This document shows, one piece after another, positions 9,511 through 63,996 of a DNA stretch of 64,000 bases. The stretch is from Pseudomonas mendocina (GTDB lineage Bacteria > Pseudomonadota > Gammaproteobacteria > Pseudomonadales > Pseudomonadaceae): assembly GCF_900636545.1 (NCBI RefSeq), contig NZ_LR134290.1, positions 248,001 through 312,000 of the forward strand, read 5' to 3'. The position numbers were made by a program, and so were the translations under genes. Every line of letters starts with the position of its first letter. Position 1 is the first letter of the stretch. The notes under the pieces are model-generated. The model was not told the DNA's origin and did not search any database. It saw only the letters and a list, made by a program, of their open reading frames with translations.

Positions 9511-10482
9511 ATGAGCGAAGCAACTGATCAGGCGGTTTACAAGACTCTTCTGGAGTCCACCCGGGCGATTCCTTGGAAGATCGACTGGAAGACCATGACC
9601 TTCGCCTACATCGGCCCGCAGATCGAGAGCCTGCTGGGTTGGTCGCAGGCCAGTTGGGTCAGCGCCGAAGACTGGGCGACGCGCATGCACCCGGATGATC
9701 GCGACAGGGTGGTGGAGTTCTGCATCTCGCAGTCGCAGAACGGCGTCGATCATGAGGCCGACTACCGCGCACTGACCGCCGCCGGTGACTACGTATGGAT
9801 TCGCGACGTGGTGCATGTGGTGCGCGACGACAACGGCGAGGTGGATTCGCTGATCGGCTTCATGTTCGACATCAGCGAGCGCAAGAAGACCGAGGAGCAA
9901 CTGCTGACCCTGCAGAAGCAGCTCGAAGAGTACTCCTACAAGGACGGCCTCACCGGCGTCGCCAACCGGCGCATGTTCGACAGCGTGTTGGCCACCGAAT
10001 GGGCCAATGCCCAGCGTACCCAGCAGCCGCTGTCGCTGATCCTGCTGGATATCGATCACTTCAAGCAGTTCAACGACCATTATGGCCACGTCCAGGGCGA
10101 TGATTGCTTGAAGAGCGTCGGCCAGGCGCTGAGCCGCGCGGCCAGCCGGCCACGGGATTTCGTCGGTCGCTTCGGTGGCGAGGAGTTCGTGCTGGTGTTG
10201 CCGGAGACCGACGAGGCCGCCGCTCGTCATATCGCCGAGCGCTGCCGCCAGCAGGTGCGTCAGCAGCGCATTCCCCATGAGCGCTCGTCGGTGTCGTCCA
10301 TGCTTACCATCAGCCTCGGCGTGGGCACTATCGTGCCGGGTGCCCACGACCGCCCGCTGGACTTCCTCAACAGCGTCGACAAGCTGCTCTACCAGGCCAA
10401 GCAACGCGGCCGTGACCGCTTGGAAGTGGCCAAGGCGCCCGCTCGCTCGACTCTGGATGGTGCCGCTGATGCCCGAGCTTGA
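9511..10482 (+). CDS. Diguanylate cyclase with N-terminal PAS domain
   Basis: Makes cyclic di-GMP from two GTP. The start at ATG 9511 fits AGAGG at 9498-9502, and the in-frame GTG at 9502 overlaps that site. Residues about 10-125 form a PAS fold with a PAC-like end (GDYVWIRDVVHVV, GFMFDISERKKTEEQ). Residues about 140-300 form the GGDEF domain with DGLTGVANRR, LILLDIDHFKQFNDHYGH, and the active-site GGEEF at 222-226. An inhibitory RxxD site (RPRD, 213-216) lies exactly five residues before it, so product feedback inhibition is likely. There is no transmembrane segment, so it is cytosolic. The signal sensed by the PAS domain is unknown. Confidence 0.92.
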   Translation: MSEATDQAVYKTLLESTRAIPWKIDWKTMTFAYIGPQIESLLGWSQASWVSAEDWATRMHPDDRDRVVEFCISQSQNGVDHEADYRALTAAGDYVWIRDVVHVVRDDNGEVDSLIGFMFDISERKKTEEQLLTLQKQLEEYSYKDGLTGVANRRMFDSVLATEWANAQRTQQPLSLILLDIDHFKQFNDHYGHVQGDDCLKSVGQALSRAASRPRDFVGRFGGEEFVLVLPETDEAAARHIAERCRQQVRQQRIPHERSSVSSMLTISLGVGTIVPGAHDRPLDFLNSVDKLLYQAKQRGRDRLEVAKAPARSTLDGAADARA

Positions 10483-54575: not shown

Positions 54576-54676
54576 GATGGAATCTCCTGTGCTTGGGGGA
54601 GTTCAGTGTCGATAATGCGCCGGTGTCCCGGTATCGGTCGTTTATCCGAGGCCGGCAAAAAACAGGAGAGCTGCCC

Positions 54677-56107
54677 ATGCAGGTGAATGACGCCGTCGCG
54701 CTGGAAGACGCCATGCTGGCGCTGGCCATGGTCGGTGACCTGAGCATGGGCCAGCCCATCGACCAGTCGCGGCGTACCGCGCGCCTGGCGCAGTGGTTGG
54801 TGCAGGCTGCTGGTGGCGATCAGGCGCAGATCGATGCCGCCCGGCAGGTGGCGCTGCTGCGCTGGTCCGGCTGTACCGCCAACGCCGAAGGTTTCATGCG
54901 CCTGTTCGGTGATGATGTCGGCGGGCGCCGCGACATGCTCGCGCACACCCTGGATGCCGCCGGTCAGCGCGCCATGCTGCGCACCACTCCCTTGGCCGTG
55001 GTGCACTGCGAGGTGGCCGGTGAGGTGGCCCGCACCCTCGATTTGCCGGCGCAGGTCGAGCTGGGGTTGCGGCATATCTTCGAATGCTTCGACGGCAGCG
55101 GCCGGCCGCTGGGCCTGCGTCATCCCGATATTCCGCAGGTGGTCTATCACGTGGTGCTGGCCGGCGATCTGGAAATCCTCTCGCGCGTCCACGGGCTGGA
55201 GGCGGCGCTGGAGTGGATCGGTGCGCAGGGTGATCGCCGCTATCCTGCCGGCCTTGCCGAACTGCTTGTCCGCCATGCCGCAGATTGGCTGGAGGCACTG
55301 CGTACGCCCGAGAGCATGCTGCCTGGCGTCGGGCCGCAGGTTTCGCTGACCCTGGTGGGCGATGTGATCGACCTCAAGCTGTCCTGGCTGGCCGGCTACT
55401 CGCGGCAGGCCTCGAATCTGGTGCGCGACGCAGCTCGGCTTTGGGGCTTACCCGAAGCGCGTATCGAACTGCTGGCCAAGGCTGCGTTGCTCCATGGCCT
55501 GGGGCGTGCGGCCGTGCCCAATCGCATCTGGAGCACGCCCGGCCCGCTGCTTGAGGGCGACCTTGAATCGGTACGCCTGGTGCCGTATTGGGCGCACCGC
55601 GCCTGCAGTCAGATCGGTGGCCTGAGCGAAGCCGGACAACTGGCTGCGCATGCCTACGAACGGCTGGATGGCAGCGGCTATTTCCGCTCGCTGAGCGGTG
55701 ATGCCCTGAGCGCCGAACACCGACTGCTGAGCGCCGCACTGGCTTGGCTCGCATTGCGCGGCGAGCGCCCCTGGCGAGCTGCCCTCGGTGACGAGCAGGC
55801 TGCTCGCGTATTACTGGATGAAGCCGAGCAGGGCCGCTTTGACTCACGCGCCTGCCAGGCAGTGATCAGCGCCGCGCACGGCGAGCAGGCGCCGCTTACC
55901 AGCAGGCCCGGCAACGGCCTGCTCAGCGAACGCGAGACGCAGATCCTGCAGCGCATCAGCAGCGGTGCCAGTAACAAGGAAGTGGCGCGCGACCTGGGCA
56001 TCAGCCCGAGCACGGTGCGTACCCATGTCGAGAGCGTGTTCCGCAAACTGCAGTGCTCCACGCGCGCAGCGGCGACCTTGAAGGCGCTGACGCTAGGCGT
56101 GATCTAA
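54677..56107 (+). CDS. Degenerate HD-GYP protein with LuxR-type DNA-binding domain
   Basis: A 476-residue protein, set to start at ATG 54677 by AGGAGAG (54664-54670). The C-terminal 60 residues are a LuxR HTH (LLSERETQILQRISSGASNKEVARDLGISPSTVRTHVESVFRKLQ). The middle resembles an HD-GYP domain, but key residues are lost: ALLHGLGRAAVPNRIW stands where HDIGKIGVP is expected, and HAYERLDGSGYFRSL where HERWDGSGYP is expected. The N-terminal part has another trace of the same fold (FECFDGSGRPLGLRHPDIPQVV). It is probably a non-catalytic sensor that binds DNA. Whether it still binds a cyclic dinucleotide is unknown. It is divergent from the secreted hydrolase. Confidence 0.8.
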   Translation: MQVNDAVALEDAMLALAMVGDLSMGQPIDQSRRTARLAQWLVQAAGGDQAQIDAARQVALLRWSGCTANAEGFMRLFGDDVGGRRDMLAHTLDAAGQRAMLRTTPLAVVHCEVAGEVARTLDLPAQVELGLRHIFECFDGSGRPLGLRHPDIPQVVYHVVLAGDLEILSRVHGLEAALEWIGAQGDRRYPAGLAELLVRHAADWLEALRTPESMLPGVGPQVSLTLVGDVIDLKLSWLAGYSRQASNLVRDAARLWGLPEARIELLAKAALLHGLGRAAVPNRIWSTPGPLLEGDLESVRLVPYWAHRACSQIGGLSEAGQLAAHAYERLDGSGYFRSLSGDALSAEHRLLSAALAWLALRGERPWRAALGDEQAARVLLDEAEQGRFDSRACQAVISAAHGEQAPLTSRPGNGLLSERETQILQRISSGASNKEVARDLGISPSTVRTHVESVFRKLQCSTRAAATLKALTLGVI

Positions 56108-56527: not shown

Positions 56528-57223
56528 TCAATTGATGCGCTCAAACGTGCGCTCAATGCATGGTTCGAACCACGATAGCCAGAGACCGCACCCCGGGCCT
56601 TGCGCTGCCTGCCAGCCGGTTGGGATGACTTCGGCACCTGCAACACGGCCGAGCCGTTCGAGCGCGTCGACATAGCCGCCGAAGGTGACCGGGCAACCGG
56701 CTTCGATGATTAGCAAGGCCTGAACTGCCGCTCTGCAGGGCTTGTCATGCAGGCGTGCCGATAGCGACTCGACTGCTTCGGCAAGGTTCGTCCCATGGGC
56801 ATGTAGGCTGCGGCCGACCCGCAAGCCTGGGCTCCAGTTGGTGTAGCTATTCCAGTCGAGCCCTGGTATCGCTGGGTTTCCCCTCGCCCGATAGAGGCTG
56901 GCCCAGAAGCCCGCCATCTGCTTGCTGCTGTCCCAGATGTAGTGGCGAAAGCCTGAATGCAGCTCGCGGTGCGGCAGCCGACACTGGTGGATATGGACGA
57001 TAGCCGCCAGGCTAGCGAGGCTTTGCCGAGGGAGTGCTGCGTTGCCGTTTGGCAGCCAGTGCACCTCGTGGAAATACTTTTCGGGCCAGCTTTCGTCCAT
57101 CCCCAATGCGAAGAATCGGGCATGCTCGATATTGCCGACCTGGCGTATCCGCGCAAGCAGGTGCTCAGCCTGCACCTTGGTCGGCGCCAGCAGTGCGATA
57201 TCCAGGACGACTGTTTCGCCCAT
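56528..57223 (-). CDS. Uncharacterised protein, second gene of the WYL-box pair
   Basis: A 231-residue soluble protein. The ATG at 57223 lies two bases after the stop of the 55-residue ORF (TAGTGATG), so translation is probably coupled. A longer frame upstream overlaps that ORF and is unlikely. It contains many Trp, His and Tyr (HEVHWLPNG, HYIWDSSKQMAGFWASLYRARG, LDWNSYTNWSPGLRVGRSLHAHG). The N-terminal half looks alpha/beta, with no signal peptide or membrane span. I recognise no domain. Its link with a palindrome also found at the WYL regulator promoter suggests that this regulator controls it. Confidence 0.65.
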   Translation of the reverse strand: MGETVVLDIALLAPTKVQAEHLLARIRQVGNIEHARFFALGMDESWPEKYFHEVHWLPNGNAALPRQSLASLAAIVHIHQCRLPHRELHSGFRHYIWDSSKQMAGFWASLYRARGNPAIPGLDWNSYTNWSPGLRVGRSLHAHGTNLAEAVESLSARLHDKPCRAAVQALLIIEAGCPVTFGGYVDALERLGRVAGAEVIPTGWQAAQGPGCGLWLSWFEPCIERTFERIN

Positions 57224-57225
57224 CA

Positions 57226-57393
57226 CTATCCGCGAACCTGAACCGGCGAGTTGAAGCATTTGTAACCTGGGTACTGGGCTTCGGCAGTGGCTTTGGCCAT
57301 CGCCGAGTTGATGGCCTGCACGGTCATGGTGAAATTTGCGGCCGGGCCAGCGCCGGCCACGGTGCGCTGCATGAACACGGAATAGGTTTTCAT
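57226..57393 (-). CDS. 55-residue small protein upstream of the WYL-controlled pair
   Basis: This short gene starts at ATG 57393 after an excellent ribosome site (AAAGGAGG) and runs MKTYSVFMQRTVAGAGPAANFTMTV and on to PGYKCFNSPVQVRG. It is compact, soluble and not very charged, with the single Cys near the end. It reads in another frame from the overlapping long frame of the next gene. A palindrome GCGACA-N5-TGTCGC lies 47 bases upstream, between it and the WYL gene. The strong Shine-Dalgarno and the coupled downstream gene are the evidence that it is real. Function unknown. Confidence 0.65.
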   Translation of the reverse strand: MKTYSVFMQRTVAGAGPAANFTMTVQAINSAMAKATAEAQYPGYKCFNSPVQVRG

Positions 57394-57431
57394 CGGTGCT
57401 GCCTCCTTTCAGGTGATGGAGGCAGGATGGG

Positions 57432-57464
57432 TGAGCATCGCGACAGCCTGTGTCGCGATGCTCA
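57432..57464. promoter_or_regulatory. Candidate WYL-regulator operator, copy 1
   Basis: A 14-base perfect inverted repeat (57432-57445 and 57451-57464, five-base spacer) with core GCGACA-N5-TGTCGC. It covers the WYL stop codon and precedes the 55-residue ORF. The same core with the same spacing recurs at 58474-58490. No T tract follows, so an operator fits better than a terminator. Confidence 0.6.
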
Positions 57465-58454
57465 ACCCTTGTCGTAGAGCCTGGCCATGCTGAGCGCGAT
57501 ACCACGCATCTGTTCACGCAGGGATATAGGTTCGATTACCTCCACATGCTCGCCCTGGCCCAGCAGCCAGAGCTCCAGTCCCTGACTCAGGTGCAGGTTT
57601 GCACTCAATCGCCACCAGCCATCCGCGTCGGCGTGCAGGCGCTGGTCGGCAGTCAAGGCATTCTCCTGCAGGCGTTCGCAGAGCGTTGGGCTGATGCGCA
57701 GTTCGAGGCGAACGGGCCGGTCGGATTTGAGGTTCACCAGGCTCCGCTGCGCGGCGACGGAATTGATGTCGTAATCCTGCGGAGCGGGCAGGTCTTCGAA
57801 GGTCGTGCGCGCCGAGATGAAGCGTTGCAGCGGCAGCGCCGCGATGTTGCCCGGCGGCAATCCCTTGAACACGCAGGACAGGTAGATATTGGAGTCCTGG
57901 TAGGAAAGCCCCAGCGGCTTTAGTAGCAGTGACTTTGGCTCGCTGGCACCGCGCTTGAGGTAGCTGACCTCAACCGAACTCTCATCCAGCAATGCCTGCT
58001 GCACCACCTCCAGAACCTCGGGTTTCACCGCCCCGGCCTCCAGCGTCACGAAGCGGGTGTTGCTGATGACCTTGCCTGAATAGTCCTGATCCAGATGCTT
58101 GCCCTTGAGCAGCGAGCGCGCATATTCACGGAGTGGCGCCAGCTTCTCGACCTGTGCGGCCATGCCGAAGCGTGCCGCGTGATCCATGATCATCACCAGG
58201 TTCATCGCATCGGTGGGCAGCATGCTCAGGCGTGAAAGCGACTTCTCTGCCCACCAGAGGTTGGCCTTGTTTTCCTTGCGACTGCGGATGTGGGGATATT
58301 TCTGGCTCAGCTCCTTGAGGTCCCGCTGCACGGTGCGTATGTCGGCCTCGATGCCCTGATTGAGCACGCGCTGGTGAATGGCCTGGGAGTTCAGCGGGTT
58401 GTCCTTGCCGGGAAGCAGGCGAAGGATCAGGTCATGACGATAAAGCTGCTCCAT
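57462..58454 (-). CDS. WYL-domain transcriptional regulator
   Basis: A 330-residue regulator of the YafY/BrxR-like type. The N-terminal winged helix is at about residues 1-75 (LYRHDLILRLLPG, NSQAIHQRVLNQGIEADIRTVQRDLKELSQKYP). The WYL domain is at about 150-230 (EVSYLKRGASEPKSLLLKPLGLSYQDSNIYLSCVFKG), where the name-giving WYL is LSY. A WCX-like C-terminal region follows. AAGGA upstream supports ATG 58454. WYL proteins sense nucleic acid or nucleotide ligands and often repress phage-defence or DNA-repair genes. Palindromes on both sides of this gene suggest autoregulation and control of the flanking genes. Confidence 0.88.
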   Translation of the reverse strand: MEQLYRHDLILRLLPGKDNPLNSQAIHQRVLNQGIEADIRTVQRDLKELSQKYPHIRSRKENKANLWWAEKSLSRLSMLPTDAMNLVMIMDHAARFGMAAQVEKLAPLREYARSLLKGKHLDQDYSGKVISNTRFVTLEAGAVKPEVLEVVQQALLDESSVEVSYLKRGASEPKSLLLKPLGLSYQDSNIYLSCVFKGLPPGNIAALPLQRFISARTTFEDLPAPQDYDINSVAAQRSLVNLKSDRPVRLELRISPTLCERLQENALTADQRLHADADGWWRLSANLHLSQGLELWLLGQGEHVEVIEPISLREQMRGIALSMARLYDKG

Positions 58455-58473
58455 GTTTCGTCCTTGTGCTCAT

Positions 58474-58490
58474 GCGACATGGCCTGTCGC
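58474..58490. promoter_or_regulatory. Candidate WYL-regulator operator, copy 2
   Basis: GCGACA-N5-TGTCGC, 20 bases before the WYL start and 47 bases before the divergent Sel1 gene start. Flanks (CAT on the left, GATG on the right) also match copy 1. It is placed to control both genes. Confidence 0.6.
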
Positions 58491-58536
58491 GATGATGTAG
58501 AGAATGTGCCGAGGCGATCAGCGAACGGGCGGCAGC

Positions 58537-59358
58537 ATGAGCAAATCGAGCAACGTGTTCAATCTTGTCGACGGGCTTCTTCCGCAAGTCGCCGCAATCG
58601 ACATCCGCCAGCCAGGCCTACTGCAAATGCTTTACGCCGGTATAGGTATGCCGTCGTTGCGTATCGAGGAAATGGCGACGCAGGGCTGCGTGACCTACTG
58701 CCAGATAAAGGCCGGTAACCGGCTTCGGAGTCTCTACGACCCGCATGCCCTACGTCAGCATTACGAGGTGCTGCGCGCGCAAGCCGTCGCTGGTGATGCC
58801 GATGCGCTGAACGATCTTGGCTGGTTGTGGCTGAACGGCTCGCGTGTCGAAGCTGACCCGCAGTTGGCACAGCAACTGTTCAGGATCGCAGCCATGCAGG
58901 GCTCGGCTGAAGCACTGTTCAACCAGGCCGAGCAGCACGCTTACGGCAAGGGCGTGGTCGTCGATCTGCACCTGGCCAGCGAGTACTACGAATTGGCGTT
59001 CCAGCAGGGTGTTCGATGTGCCGCGCAGGCACTTGGCGGGCTTTACGAAAACGGTGACGAGGGCTTTGCCGCTGATCATGCCAAAGCCCTGGCTTGGTAC
59101 AGGCATGGTGCCGATGAGCAGGATCCCATGGCCTGTTACCTGCTCGGCCGGTTGGCATTGGATGAGTTATCGAGTGTCTTCGATCCACTACTCGGGCTGT
59201 ACTGGCTGCAGTGGGCGGCGATGCGGGGCGAAGTGCTTGCCAGCGAGCGTCTGGCTTCTTTCTACTACGACTCTTTCGACACCCCGCCTGACCCCGATGG
59301 GCTGCTTCATGGGTTCTGGCGAGGCGTGGCCATCCAACAGGGCAGCACCTCGGTATGA
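58537..59358 (+). CDS. Sel1-repeat protein
   Basis: A 273-residue protein with about four or five Sel1/TPR-like repeats between residues 80 and 250: DADALNDLGWLWLNGSRVEADPQLAQQLFRIAAMQGSAEALFNQAEQHAYGKGVVVDLHLASEYYELAFQQGVRCAAQALGGLYENGDEGFAADHAKALAWYRHGA. The first 75 residues lack repeats and have no recognised domain. No signal peptide, so cytosolic. Sel1 repeats bind other proteins. It is divergent from the WYL gene and shares its palindrome-bearing promoter region. The next gene, 70 bases on, reads in the same direction. Confidence 0.82.
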   Translation: MSKSSNVFNLVDGLLPQVAAIDIRQPGLLQMLYAGIGMPSLRIEEMATQGCVTYCQIKAGNRLRSLYDPHALRQHYEVLRAQAVAGDADALNDLGWLWLNGSRVEADPQLAQQLFRIAAMQGSAEALFNQAEQHAYGKGVVVDLHLASEYYELAFQQGVRCAAQALGGLYENGDEGFAADHAKALAWYRHGADEQDPMACYLLGRLALDELSSVFDPLLGLYWLQWAAMRGEVLASERLASFYYDSFDTPPDPDGLLHGFWRGVAIQQGSTSV

Positions 59359-59428
59359 GTGCGTAGCGATCAAGAATTGAGCGGGGCGTGCGCTGCGTGT
59401 CGCGTGAGGATTTCCAGTGAGGGAAAAG

Positions 59429-60211
59429 ATGCATCAAGACAATCCACTAACCGTCTATCTGCGCGACTTCATCGGCAACGTGAATGAACATTACAAGTGG
59501 TCATTCAACGAGGTAGCGGCAGCGAAGTACCTCGATCAGCCCTTGCCGGCAGAGGCCACCTGGTTCGACAAGACGCTGGCTCTTAAAGCCCGGCTGAAAG
59601 AGCGTCTGGCACAATCGGATAGCCGCCAGGAACATCTGGACATCGCCAGCTACTTCATTTCCGACTGGGGTGGCGTGGGCACCAACAAGAACCTCGAACG
59701 TGTCGTTGACTGGACTCGTGCCCAGGCGGCAGAAGGGCGGCAGGCGTTCGAGCAGGTGGAGCTGAAGGGTGTCAGCAGTTGGTCCAAGTACCTGAGTCTG
59801 CTGTGCGACTGGGCGCCTATCTACGACTCGCGGGTGGCCTTCGCGATCAACGCCATCAACTACATGCACGGCCAGCTGGACTGCTTTTATCCGATGCCGG
59901 AAGGGCGCAGCCCGCGACTGAGCCTGATCGATCTGGAGACCCTCTTCCTCCTGGCCCGTCTGGACCTGATCAGCGACGACGATGTCCGGCATCGCCAGCT
60001 CTCTGCGCGGGTGCAGAAGAAATTTCATCTTCCGGAGAAGCAGACCTATTCGCGCTACGTTGCGCTGCTCGAGGAGGTCGCCATACAGCTTGGCCTGGGC
60101 GTGGACGGTCACCATCAGGTGGAGATGCTGCTGTTCTCGATGGCGCCCGAGCGCATCTTTTCCGATCTGCTCGGGCATCTGCGCAAGACGCAGGCCGTCA
60201 CTCCAGCCTAG
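59429..60211 (+). CDS. Uncharacterised protein, possible OGG/HhH-glycosylase-like fold
   Basis: A 260-residue soluble protein. ATG 59429 is chosen because GAGGG (59419-59423) precedes it. The GTG at 59417 would remove that site. The segment VELKGVSSWSKYLSLLCDWAPIYDSRVAFAINAINY (residues about 110-145) recalls the helix-hairpin-helix plus catalytic-Asp region of 8-oxoguanine-glycosylase-like proteins seen in accessory loci. That is resemblance by eye and weak. The rest is helical. It follows the Sel1 gene and may belong to the same WYL-controlled unit. Confidence 0.6.
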   Translation: MHQDNPLTVYLRDFIGNVNEHYKWSFNEVAAAKYLDQPLPAEATWFDKTLALKARLKERLAQSDSRQEHLDIASYFISDWGGVGTNKNLERVVDWTRAQAAEGRQAFEQVELKGVSSWSKYLSLLCDWAPIYDSRVAFAINAINYMHGQLDCFYPMPEGRSPRLSLIDLETLFLLARLDLISDDDVRHRQLSARVQKKFHLPEKQTYSRYVALLEEVAIQLGLGVDGHHQVEMLLFSMAPERIFSDLLGHLRKTQAVTPA

Positions 60212-60323: not shown

Positions 60324-60512
60324 TCAGTCGCCCCCTCCGCCATCGCCCCCGCCGCCCGAGTCGAAGTCCCCGTCACCAAAGCCGGTGTTGGAGTCCTGCC
60401 CGTTCAGGCCGCTTCTCCTCTTTTTACCCGCGAGTGACTTGGGCCTTGAGCGTTGCCACGAATAGATGGAAAGCACCACGAATGCGATAGCGATCAGCGG
60501 CAGAATATCCAT
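60324..60512 (-). CDS. Small single-span membrane protein with Gly/Asp-rich tail
   Basis: A 62-residue protein. GGAGAG lies upstream of ATG 60512. Residues 4-18 form a membrane segment (LPLIAIAFVVLSIYSW), then a basic patch (RSRPKSLAGKKRRS). The C-terminus is FGDGDFDSGGGGDGGGGD, like the glycine-rich tail found in some TPM-domain and small envelope proteins. A dedicated terminator follows. The family is not recognised and its role is unknown. Confidence 0.7.
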   Translation of the reverse strand: MDILPLIAIAFVVLSIYSWQRSRPKSLAGKKRRSGLNGQDSNTGFGDGDFDSGGGGDGGGGD

Positions 60513-60617: not shown

Positions 60618-62867
60618 CTACAGGGCACTTTCTGCAAGCGCCGGCACGGTGAACTGAAACTCCGAGCCCTTGCCCAATTCGCTCTCGACGACGATATGCC
60701 CGCCGTGGGCTTCCACTATGCCTTGGGTAATGTACAAACCAAGCCCGGTCCCGGTTGGATTGCCATCTTTTGCTGTCCAGTAACGATCGAATACATGAGG
60801 CAGATGCTCCTCGGGGATGCCCTCGCCGCTGTCGCGCACGCTAAATACGATATCGCCGCCGACAGATTTTGCGCGAACGCCGACTGTGCCCCGGCGTGGG
60901 GTGAACTTGATCGCATTGCCGATCAGGTTTGAGAGCACCTGAAACAGCCGCTCGGGATCAGCGTGAATCCGTAGGTCAGGATCCGCCTCGAAGGAAATGC
61001 TGATGTCCTTGTCGAGGGCCAGTGGTGCGAGCAACGATTGCGCTTCTTCGAACATGTGCCCGACATCGAGCTTTTGCGGGGTGATGGTGTAGCGCCCGGC
61101 ATCGATCTTCGACGTGTCGAGCAAATCTTCGAGCAGCGTATTCATTCGTCCGGCAGCCTGCTGCATGGTGTCGAGTGCTGTGGCGATGCGTCGTGACGTA
61201 TGCGGACCGTCGGAGCTGAAGGTCTTTTGCATCATGCTGCAGAGCATCGAAATCACCGTCATGGGATTTCTCAGATCGTGCGAAACCACGGCAACCAACT
61301 CGTCACGGGCACGCACCGCTTCCTGTTCGCGCAGTACTTGGCGGGCGAGGTCATGCTCCAGCGCCGAGCGGCGCAGGTCCTTGGCCGCAAACAGATCTCC
61401 CTGGCTCCACTTGGTTGAGATCCCAGCCATCTCGACTTTCCAGATTTCGAACGAAGTGCGAGGCCGCAAGCGCAAGCCTGCATCGGAATTTTCCAGACCC
61501 ATGGGTTTGCGCGGGTCGCCGCTCCAGTTGATGCTCTCTTTTACCTCCGGTCGAAACCACAACACAGCGTTATCCACCGGTTTGGGTAGGCTCATCGCCA
61601 GTACACCGCTAGCCACCTGTGGGTATTGCGCGGCGGGCGGATAGACCCCTGAAAGGTGATGGCTGGAAAACACCGGCTCGCCTCTGTCTTGCAACCATTT
61701 GTGCAGCGCACGGATTTCCTGGGGCTCCGGGCAGTTGCCGTATCGGTGTAACTGCTTGTCTTCGATGATCGCGACACCGCCAGCCGCTGTTAGCGCCATC
61801 AGCACGTCAGGCCGCCTTGCCAGCCCATCGAAAACTGTCGGGGTAGAGTCGTTCATGGCCTGATTGAGCAGCGTAAGCGCATCGATTTTCTCTTCACGCT
61901 GACGGTTGATCTCCAGCGACTCCAGGGCGCTGATCTGTAATGAGAGTACCTGACCGATGGTCTGGCAGGCGCTGCGCAGCTCATGCGGTACGTGCAACGG
62001 CTGGCGATTGCCGCAGCTGATCAGGCCCCAAAGCTGATCGCCCTTGAGCAGGGAAATGCTCATCGACGACAGCACCCCCATGTTCTTCATGTACTGGCAG
62101 TGAATCGGGGAAACGCTACGCAGCGTGGCGAAGCTCAGATCCAGCGGGGTCTGCGTGTCGGGACGCAGCTTCGGTACCAGAGGCACCGGTTGGTAATCGG
62201 CATTGGGGATGATTCGCAGCCAATTGGTGCGATACAACTCACGAGCTTGCTCGGGGATATCCGAGGCGGGGAAGAACAAACCATTGAAGACCTCCATTGA
62301 CGGGGCGGAGGCTTCAGCGATGACCTGGCCGTGACCTTCCTCCTCGAAGCGGTAGATCAGCACCCGGTCGTAACCGGTCATCGCCTGAATTTCCCTGACA
62401 CTGATGTCGTATAGCTCCTGCAGCGCGCTCGCTTTTTGCAGGCGCTGGAGCATGCGTCCCAGGTTGGCGTTGAGCCCAGCGACGTTGCGCGGCTGGAAAT
62501 TCTCGACGTGGATTTCCAGCTCCAGGATCAACACACCTTCATGCCGGTGCAGCAAGCCCTCGAATGCCTTGCCATTGACGTGAAAGTGCAGCGGGCCGGC
62601 GTCTGCAAACCCAGGCTGCACGAGCGCCTTGCACACCGCGTCGGCATGGGCCTTGCCGATCAGCCGGTGTAACGGCAGGCCGATCACTTCTTGCGGCGTG
62701 TGCGCCAGCAAGGTTTCGACATTGGCGCTGACCTGAATGATCTCGAGGCCGGGTTCGCTGAGAGTCAGCAGTACGCCATGAGGCTGAATCGCTCCGGGGA
62801 AGCGGATGGGTTCGTCGGCGCAGTTGGCCAGCAGTACTTCGAAGGCCTCTTTGTTCGGTGGGGTCAT
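60618..62867 (-). CDS. bphP: Bacteriophytochrome histidine kinase BphP
   Basis: A 749-residue red/far-red photoreceptor kinase. The PAS domain begins with ANCADEPIRFPGAIQPHGVLL, where Cys16 binds biliverdin. The GAF domain has FFPASDIPEQARELYRTNWLRIIPNADYQPVPL and LRSVSPIHCQYMKNMGVLSSMSISL. A PHY domain follows (about residues 320-500). The kinase has the H-box VSHDLRNPM (His530), NLIGNAIKFTP, RDSGEGIP and GTGLGLYI. No response regulator gene is adjacent. It overlaps bphO (ATGA), so the chromophore-making enzyme and the apoprotein are made together. Confidence 0.96.
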   Translation of the reverse strand: MTPPNKEAFEVLLANCADEPIRFPGAIQPHGVLLTLSEPGLEIIQVSANVETLLAHTPQEVIGLPLHRLIGKAHADAVCKALVQPGFADAGPLHFHVNGKAFEGLLHRHEGVLILELEIHVENFQPRNVAGLNANLGRMLQRLQKASALQELYDISVREIQAMTGYDRVLIYRFEEEGHGQVIAEASAPSMEVFNGLFFPASDIPEQARELYRTNWLRIIPNADYQPVPLVPKLRPDTQTPLDLSFATLRSVSPIHCQYMKNMGVLSSMSISLLKGDQLWGLISCGNRQPLHVPHELRSACQTIGQVLSLQISALESLEINRQREEKIDALTLLNQAMNDSTPTVFDGLARRPDVLMALTAAGGVAIIEDKQLHRYGNCPEPQEIRALHKWLQDRGEPVFSSHHLSGVYPPAAQYPQVASGVLAMSLPKPVDNAVLWFRPEVKESINWSGDPRKPMGLENSDAGLRLRPRTSFEIWKVEMAGISTKWSQGDLFAAKDLRRSALEHDLARQVLREQEAVRARDELVAVVSHDLRNPMTVISMLCSMMQKTFSSDGPHTSRRIATALDTMQQAAGRMNTLLEDLLDTSKIDAGRYTITPQKLDVGHMFEEAQSLLAPLALDKDISISFEADPDLRIHADPERLFQVLSNLIGNAIKFTPRRGTVGVRAKSVGGDIVFSVRDSGEGIPEEHLPHVFDRYWTAKDGNPTGTGLGLYITQGIVEAHGGHIVVESELGKGSEFQFTVPALAESAL

Positions 62868-63919: not shown

Positions 63920-63996
63920 TGGCGCACTCGGCGGGATTCGAACCCACGACCCCTGCCTTCGGAGGGCAGTACTCTATCCAGCTGAGCTACGAGTGC
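63920..63996 (-). tRNA. tRNA-Arg (anticodon CCG)
   Basis: A complete 77-base cloverleaf with encoded CCA. The acceptor stem is GCACTCG/CGAGTGC with discriminator G. The D arm is GCTCAGCTGGATAGAGT, the anticodon arm is CTGCC-CTCCGAA-GGCAG with anticodon CCG, and the T arm is GTGGGTTCGAATCCCGC. It decodes CGG. Confidence 0.97.

Follow-up and report, generated by a model that had tools for sequence, protein, structure and literature searches.

A recurrent, apparently co-regulated WYL gene module of Pseudomonadaceae with a candidate HhH-GPD-type glycosylase and a probable DNA-conflict function

INTRODUCTION

CapW, from the cyclic oligonucleotide-based antiphage signaling system (CBASS), and BrxR, from the bacteriophage exclusion system (BREX), are WYL-domain repressors; CapW is described as binding palindromes and the BrxR boxes as carrying a 5-bp spacer (PMC9122588, PMC9122601). 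Here we analyze five genes around a WYL-domain regulator in a 64,000-nucleotide stretch of Pseudomonas mendocina DNA (the window, G000:C1:248001-312000 of a 5.19-Mb single-contig genome, G000). Our comparisons indicate that these genes belong to a real, recurrent, and apparently co-regulated module with a probable DNA-conflict function.

One of the five genes encodes a candidate DNA glycosylase. Defence by such enzymes has been shown only recently, and the reports on Brig1 and Brig3 place these antiphage glycosylases in the uracil-DNA-glycosylase superfamily, state that Brig1 alone confers immunity, and call Brig2 a Brig1 homologue (PMC11078745, PMC13160076). WYL regulators may also serve outside defence: SiwR is reported to act in a genotoxic-stress role (PMC10693628).

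RESULTS

Five genes lie between positions 56528 and 60211 of the window, each where the initial annotation had placed it. Three are on the minus strand: B231 (56528-57223), encoding a 231-residue protein; A55 (57226-57393), encoding a 55-residue protein; and the regulator gene (57462-58454; 330 amino acids), in which Pfam confirmed a WYL domain followed by WCX. Divergent from these, on the plus strand, are a gene for a Sel1-repeat protein (Sel1; 58537-59358, 273 amino acids from the ATG at 58537), confirmed by PF08238, and a gene for an OGG-like glycosylase candidate of the HhH-GPD type (OGGL; 59429-60211, 260 amino acids from the ATG at 59429). The last two starts were read from the sequence, and both lie within longer mechanically called open reading frames (ORFs), open from 58504 and from a GTG at 59417, respectively. 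The overlap earlier described for the minus-strand genes is absent from the window, where the stop and start of A55 and B231 are 2 nt apart; profile matches to the two often overlap in relatives.

Do these genes stay together in other genomes? Single-protein searches of 119 family genomes, with the window genome included in each count, found B231 in 6, OGGL in 2, and the WYL protein in 41 (E ≤ 0.001), and Sel1 in 7 (E ≤ 1e-15). B231 adjoined A55 in all 6 of its genomes, and the Sel1 matches lay beside other module genes in 6 of 7 (the exception was G002). A55 itself was present in 25 of 398 family genomes and, the window genome aside, in none of 244 genomes across the order. Stretches taken around all 25 A55 genomes yielded 31 A55 loci. 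This count includes one remnant (L146 7907) and leaves out two shorter ones. A WYL gene was found within 1.5 kb of A55 at 22 of the 31 loci, Sel1 within 5 kb at 23, a B231 homologue within 300 nt at 19, and an OGG-like gene within 6 kb at 17. At the other 12 of the 31 loci no B231 lies within 300 nt, so the association of A55 with B231 is not a strict one. The family profiles were partly built from these same loci, which makes weak family calls circular; the four initial single-protein searches are independent of them. The initial annotation had proposed that the genes form one unit, and for the WYL gene, A55, B231, and Sel1 this was borne out: they are not scattered but linked across several genera, and an operator-like site is shared by both transcription units. 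For window-type OGGL, in contrast, the proposal partly fails. On these sequence comparisons, the view that the five genes form one co-regulated unit is well supported.

The matching palindromes reported around the regulator gene are real. One spans 57429-57467 (17-nt arms, 94% complementary, 5-nt spacer) and contains the motif GCGACA-N5-TGTCGC at 57440-57456, which begins 63 nt upstream of the A55 start; the second copy of the motif, at 58474-58490, lies in the intergenic region from which WYL and Sel1 diverge. A loose form of this site occurred within 160 nt before A55 at 24 of the 31 loci, in every case with a copy 57 to 66 nt from the start, and the strict form preceded A55 at 12. Over 530,557 bases, there were 62 loose sites versus 3 for a reversed control. 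Assigned to the nearest downstream gene within 400 nt, they fell before A55 (20), WYL (20), RecC (7), Sel1 (3), and other genes (2), with 10 unassigned. Since stretches L148 and L158 overlap, the 7 RecC sites represent 6 of 7 distinct module RecC loci; the locus in G620 lacks the site, and four of the six with it come from apparently related genomes (G414, G426, G451, and G457). The strict 17-bp pattern occurred three times in the 5.19-Mb genome, twice at this locus; because a backwards-read control also occurred twice, the genome-wide count by itself says little. It is the position before genes that carries weight, and on that basis the palindromes look like operators. A reading of the palindrome as a terminator was rejected because a terminator scan reported none there and because WYL and recC genes also have this site in front of them.

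The third strict site (4650761-4650777) precedes a WYL paralogue, by about 94 nt when measured to the open frame and by 163 nt when measured to the profile match. There (L163, G000:C1:4641000-4660900, at 9762), the paralogue (28% identical) is followed by ORFs of 593 and 294 residues. By eye, the 593-residue ORF has an HNH-like stretch, and the locus is possibly a second WYL-controlled unit.

These features resemble those of CapW and BrxR: a WYL domain plus WCX (as in CapW), palindromes before both the regulator's own gene and predicted target genes, a 5-bp spacer (as in BrxR), and defence-like neighbours. The target genes differ, however, DNA binding by the module's WYL protein is a prediction, and the likeness of the operators is one of arrangement, not a letter-by-letter comparison. 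By analogy, the WYL protein probably occupies the GCGACA-N5-TGTCGC sites.

The WYL protein scored 29.5 bits against PF13280 (cut-off, 21.8) and 56.5 bits against PF25583 (cut-off, 23.9). A 13-row profile matched solved WYL proteins at E values of 5e-13 to 1e-12 and PafBC at 7.8e-9; a single-sequence search recovered none of those solved proteins, nor PafBC. The N terminus gave two sub-cut-off matches, to HTH_12 (E = 0.052) and to Arg_repressor (E = 0.21), and the profile weakly touched Fur and ArgR chains. In several modules the WYL gene is disrupted and the other module genes are retained. It is split by an IS3-type (L139 9879-12221) or an IS5-type (L141 7632-9838) insertion, lies in pieces elsewhere (L143 905-1906, L145 9979-10491, L147 981-1493, and L158 6059-6571), and is shorter in three stretches. 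Constitutive expression after loss of this switch may be tolerated.

OGGL, in which a faint glycosylase-like segment had been noted earlier, matched PF21790 (E = 2.4e-4; 21.3 bits), but below the cut-off of 27. Residues K124 and D137 (numbered on the 264-amino-acid ORF) are invariant in 32 of 32 aligned rows. They lie in a GVSSWSK...IYDSRV pattern, which we take to resemble the HhH-GPD Lys/Asp motif, and by motif reading, as opposed to superposition, they would correspond to K249 and D268 of OGG1. In structural comparison the best rows were archaeal Ogg proteins (MjOgg, 3knt; SsOgg, 3fhg), the first two VIA rows being true 8-oxoguanine glycosylases. None of the 50 VIA entries listed for OGGL was a uracil-DNA glycosylase, which does not by itself exclude that fold. 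OGGL resembles archaeal Ogg, which gave its best structural rows, and its invariant Lys and Asp fall within the motif that would be expected; it differs in its weak overall similarity, with a profile match to PDB sequences no better than an E value of 0.97, and in its genomic setting. Taken together, these model-based comparisons make OGGL a candidate HhH-GPD-type glycosylase that may excise bases from DNA.

Could OGGL instead be a nucleotide or RNA N-glycosidase, like the queuosine nucleotide hydrolase DUF2419, so that depletion of such a molecule by the module leads to death or arrest of the infected cell? We regard this as very doubtful: the structural Z of that comparison was lower than those of MjOgg, SsOgg, and EndoIII, the Lys/Asp pattern described above resembles that of HhH-GPD enzymes, and the module nucleases act on DNA.

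In many relatives the place of the glycosylase is occupied by F3, which profile comparison identifies as a distant homologue of OGGL and which has the same Lys/Asp pair, the equivalents being invariant in 9 of 9 F3 rows. F3 was found instead of window-type OGGL in 16 genes of the module stretches. In one genome (G104, an 11.4-kb contig) Sel1, F3, and WYL occur without A55.

Several relatives carry a larger form of the module, with the gene order Sel1, F3, F5, RecC, RecB, to which some add RecD; a different arrangement has Sel1 followed, with or without F5, by AddB and AddA. RecB or AddA lay within 12 kb of A55 at 14 of the 31 loci and F5 within 6 kb at 9. Pfam identified RecC, a UvrD/PD-(D/E)XK helicase-nuclease, a second nuclease, and RecD among the large-module proteins, all full-length subunits. 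The module RecC is an extra copy, as all 7 genomes with it carry another RecC elsewhere (in two pieces in G417), and each of 6 genomes tested without a module RecC has one. The AddA type was present in 4 of 15 genomes tested, one copy each, in the module. In being full length these subunits resemble known RecBCD and AddAB; they differ in being additional, module-borne copies, and the RecBCD form has an operator-like site before recC. The window locus has no RecBCD or AddAB of its own: the sole RecC match in G000 is far off (2931083-2934448), and the AddA type has no match there at an E value of ≤1e-20. The window therefore holds what appears to be a small form of the module, without its own nuclease.

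Other genes join the module in some relatives. A pPIWI-RE set (REase, DinG, and pPIWI) directly follows B231 in L143, L145, L147, and L158, and the four genomes concerned appear to be related; the members of L143 and L147 were scanned, and those of L145 and L158 were called by shared families. An inositol-phosphatase-type gene lay within 5 kb of A55 at 6 of the 31 loci, three of which also have F3 beside A55. In L097 (6157-7998) Pfam shows an inositol-phosphatase fused to an ADP-ribosylglycohydrolase, and in L098 the gene is unfused; genes of the L097 family also occur in L149, L150, L151, and L009 (8629-10464), beside Sel1 and A55 or WYL. On a Pseudomonas luteola plasmid, F3, WYL, the inositol-phosphatase fusion type, and F5 occur together, and A55 and B231 were not detected. 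F5 (197 amino acids; L141 5121-5714, minus strand) is 59 to 93% identical to seven other aligned rows; it had no trusted Pfam match, and its best match in a PDB profile search, at an E value of 0.042, was likewise untrusted. By eye, an Arg, YAS, ELFFE pattern in F5 could be an ADP-ribosyltransferase signature.

These neighbours bear on whether the module serves DNA repair instead of defence. Under that explanation, a WYL protein of the PafBC/SiwR kind would sense single-stranded DNA after oxidative damage and induce OGG-like repair of the cell's own oxidised bases, with accessory RecBCD or AddAB mending breaks. The true 8-oxoguanine glycosylases at the head of the OGGL comparison, the WYL profile match to PafBC, and the response of SiwR to genotoxic stress and its binding to single-stranded DNA (PMC10693628) all fit this explanation. 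However, the module's patchy spread (A55 in 25/398 family genomes, OGGL in 11/388 genus genomes), the pPIWI-RE neighbours in some relatives, and the duplicated RecBCD suggest conflict genes instead. Repair genes of the housekeeping kind tend to be present in every genome, which also counts against repair, and we consider it a serious but improbable alternative.

Of all parts of the module, A55 is the best conserved, with relatives 56 to 80% identical to the window copy versus 24 to 39% for B231. The strong ribosome-binding site (AGGAGG) noted before A55 is real and sits inside a hairpin at 57399-57425 (minus strand; CTGCCTCC...GGAGGCAG), where it pairs with an upstream CCTCC. The fold z score of the window hairpin was -3.7; among 13 sequences including the window, 4 scored below -3, 4 between -1.5 and -2, and 5 showed no clear excess. 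The window pair GCC/GGC is GTC/GAC in many relatives, a change that is compensatory as judged from the alignment. The B231 family has invariant residues E53, H55, H79, W97, and L154. PDB searches by profile gave nothing trusted for either protein (best E values, 1.6 for A55 and 0.087 for B231), and an AlphaFold2 model of B231, built from five near-identical rows, had a predicted local distance difference test score of 35 and supports no fold claim. A likeness by eye of the C-terminal half of B231 to the FtsZ C-terminal domain was set aside as a weak lead only (hhalign against seven FtsZ sequences, 5.1% probability, E = 0.0077).

In library searches, only WYL and Sel1 of the five module proteins passed Pfam cut-offs, and A55 and B231 had no Pfam match at an E value of ≤1. 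In line with the statement that the four proteins around the regulator match no known system, PADLOC 2.0.0 recognized WYL only and none of the other four at an E value of ≤1. NCBIfam matched Sel1 alone, below cut-off. PHROGs returned only families without known function, at E values below 0.01 for WYL and Sel1 alone; B231 had two weak matches there (0.018 and 0.076), and A55 had none.

To the left, the module is flanked by an HD/LuxR-type regulator (54593-56107) and a 90-residue ORF, and to the right by a 62-residue ORF (60324-60512, minus strand) and, by our own sequence reading, a phytochrome-like histidine kinase (60618-62867). The 62-residue ORF has a Gly/Asp-rich end and a sub-cut-off Pfam match to a YxzE-like putative bacteriocin. 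A tRNA-Arg (CCG) at 63920-63996 (minus strand), 3.7 kb from the module, may be an integration point. There is no strong sign of recent entry, because the module GC content is 60.5% versus 63.5% for windows of the same size (standard deviation, 2.2). The left flank, used for an empty-site test, matched in 7 of 57 genomes, the window genome included; the relatives were too distant, the longest match outside the own genome being 69% over about 760 nt and higher identities being confined to short pieces. A plasmid search found no A55, no B231, one distant OGGL match, and 12 WYL matches. OGGL had no match at an E value of ≤0.001 in a viral structure library and no relative on viral contigs. A55 was seen on one viral-classed contig (IMGVR_UViG_3300011458_000001; L159 10001-10162); the 10.4 kb examined there gave no match to the remaining module genes. 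Stretches L098 (G046:C15) and L099 (G105:C35) are islands with Sel1, A55, and B231; L098 also holds three further WYL genes in about 15 kb and a GTPase-like protein.

DISCUSSION

We give about an even chance to the reading that this module attacks DNA, is repressed by its WYL protein, occurs patchily, and most likely acts against viruses, the window holding its small form. In the proposed mechanism, the WYL protein, which is related to CapW, BrxR, and PafBC, would occupy the palindromic sites and hold the genes low until released by a signal, for example single-stranded or damaged DNA or an infection-derived nucleotide. The hairpin over the A55 ribosome-binding site may add translational control. 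Once made, the Sel1 protein may serve the OGG-like enzyme as an adaptor, and the enzyme would remove, or nick at, modified or oxidised bases by means of its Lys/Asp pair, and A55 and B231 may gate or sense. The abasic or nicked DNA would then be destroyed by the module's RecBCD or AddAB in the large form and by host RecBCD in the window genome. Repression, induction, base excision, DNA degradation, and defence are thus all inferred activities, and the stress or defence role is suggested by analogy from the enzyme classes, the neighbours, and known WYL regulators.

Some observations weigh against this reading. The evidence for the fold of the OGGL enzyme is moderate, and the roles given to A55 and B231 are a guess. 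Moreover, window-type OGGL had no adjoining Sel1, A55, B231, or F3 at 47 of 47 genome loci, several of them short (a WYL gene of some kind is present at 5, and L018 alone has a RecB-like match), and 10 of 10 further short loci lacked any other module gene. Together with the 70-nt gap between the end of Sel1 and the start of OGGL, these loci speak for a unit of WYL, A55, B231, and Sel1 only, OGGL having arrived separately and come to lie downstream of Sel1 by chance. Yet F3, the homologue with the same Lys/Asp pair, is near Sel1 in many relatives, and the same enzyme class would hardly arrive twice at one slot by chance; separate arrival is in our judgment unlikely.

If the module is indeed a DNA-attack system, how does it compare with known defence glycosylases? 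Like Brig1 and Brig3, OGGL is a candidate glycosylase in a patchy, defence-like locus, and the predicted ADP-ribosyl glycohydrolase neighbours of Brig1-type and Brig3 loci have counterparts in some modules here. Unlike them, the OGGL model ranks nearest to HhH-GPD enzymes, and the gene is accompanied by Sel1, A55, B231, and sometimes RecBCD or AddAB. We found no description of this gene combination in titles and abstract openings, a search outside which lay supplements, most subscription papers, and most preprints. Its parts are known in kind or unknown; the combination appears new.

More tentatively, the module may represent a new antiviral class in Pseudomonadaceae, in which a WYL-repressed HhH-GPD glycosylase marks foreign modified DNA and a dedicated second RecBCD or AddAB degrades it, built on the highly conserved A55, whose function would be new, with an RNA hairpin at its start and with pPIWI-RE Argonaute genes as an option. 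If this is true, a second major glycosylase fold would have been recruited to defence, together with a regulator, an adaptor, and a private RecBCD or AddAB. To have a duplicated RecBCD governed by a switch of the phage-defence type would be a remarkable variation on a classic machine that degrades phage DNA, and A55 with its upstream site would offer a cheap marker for finding such loci.

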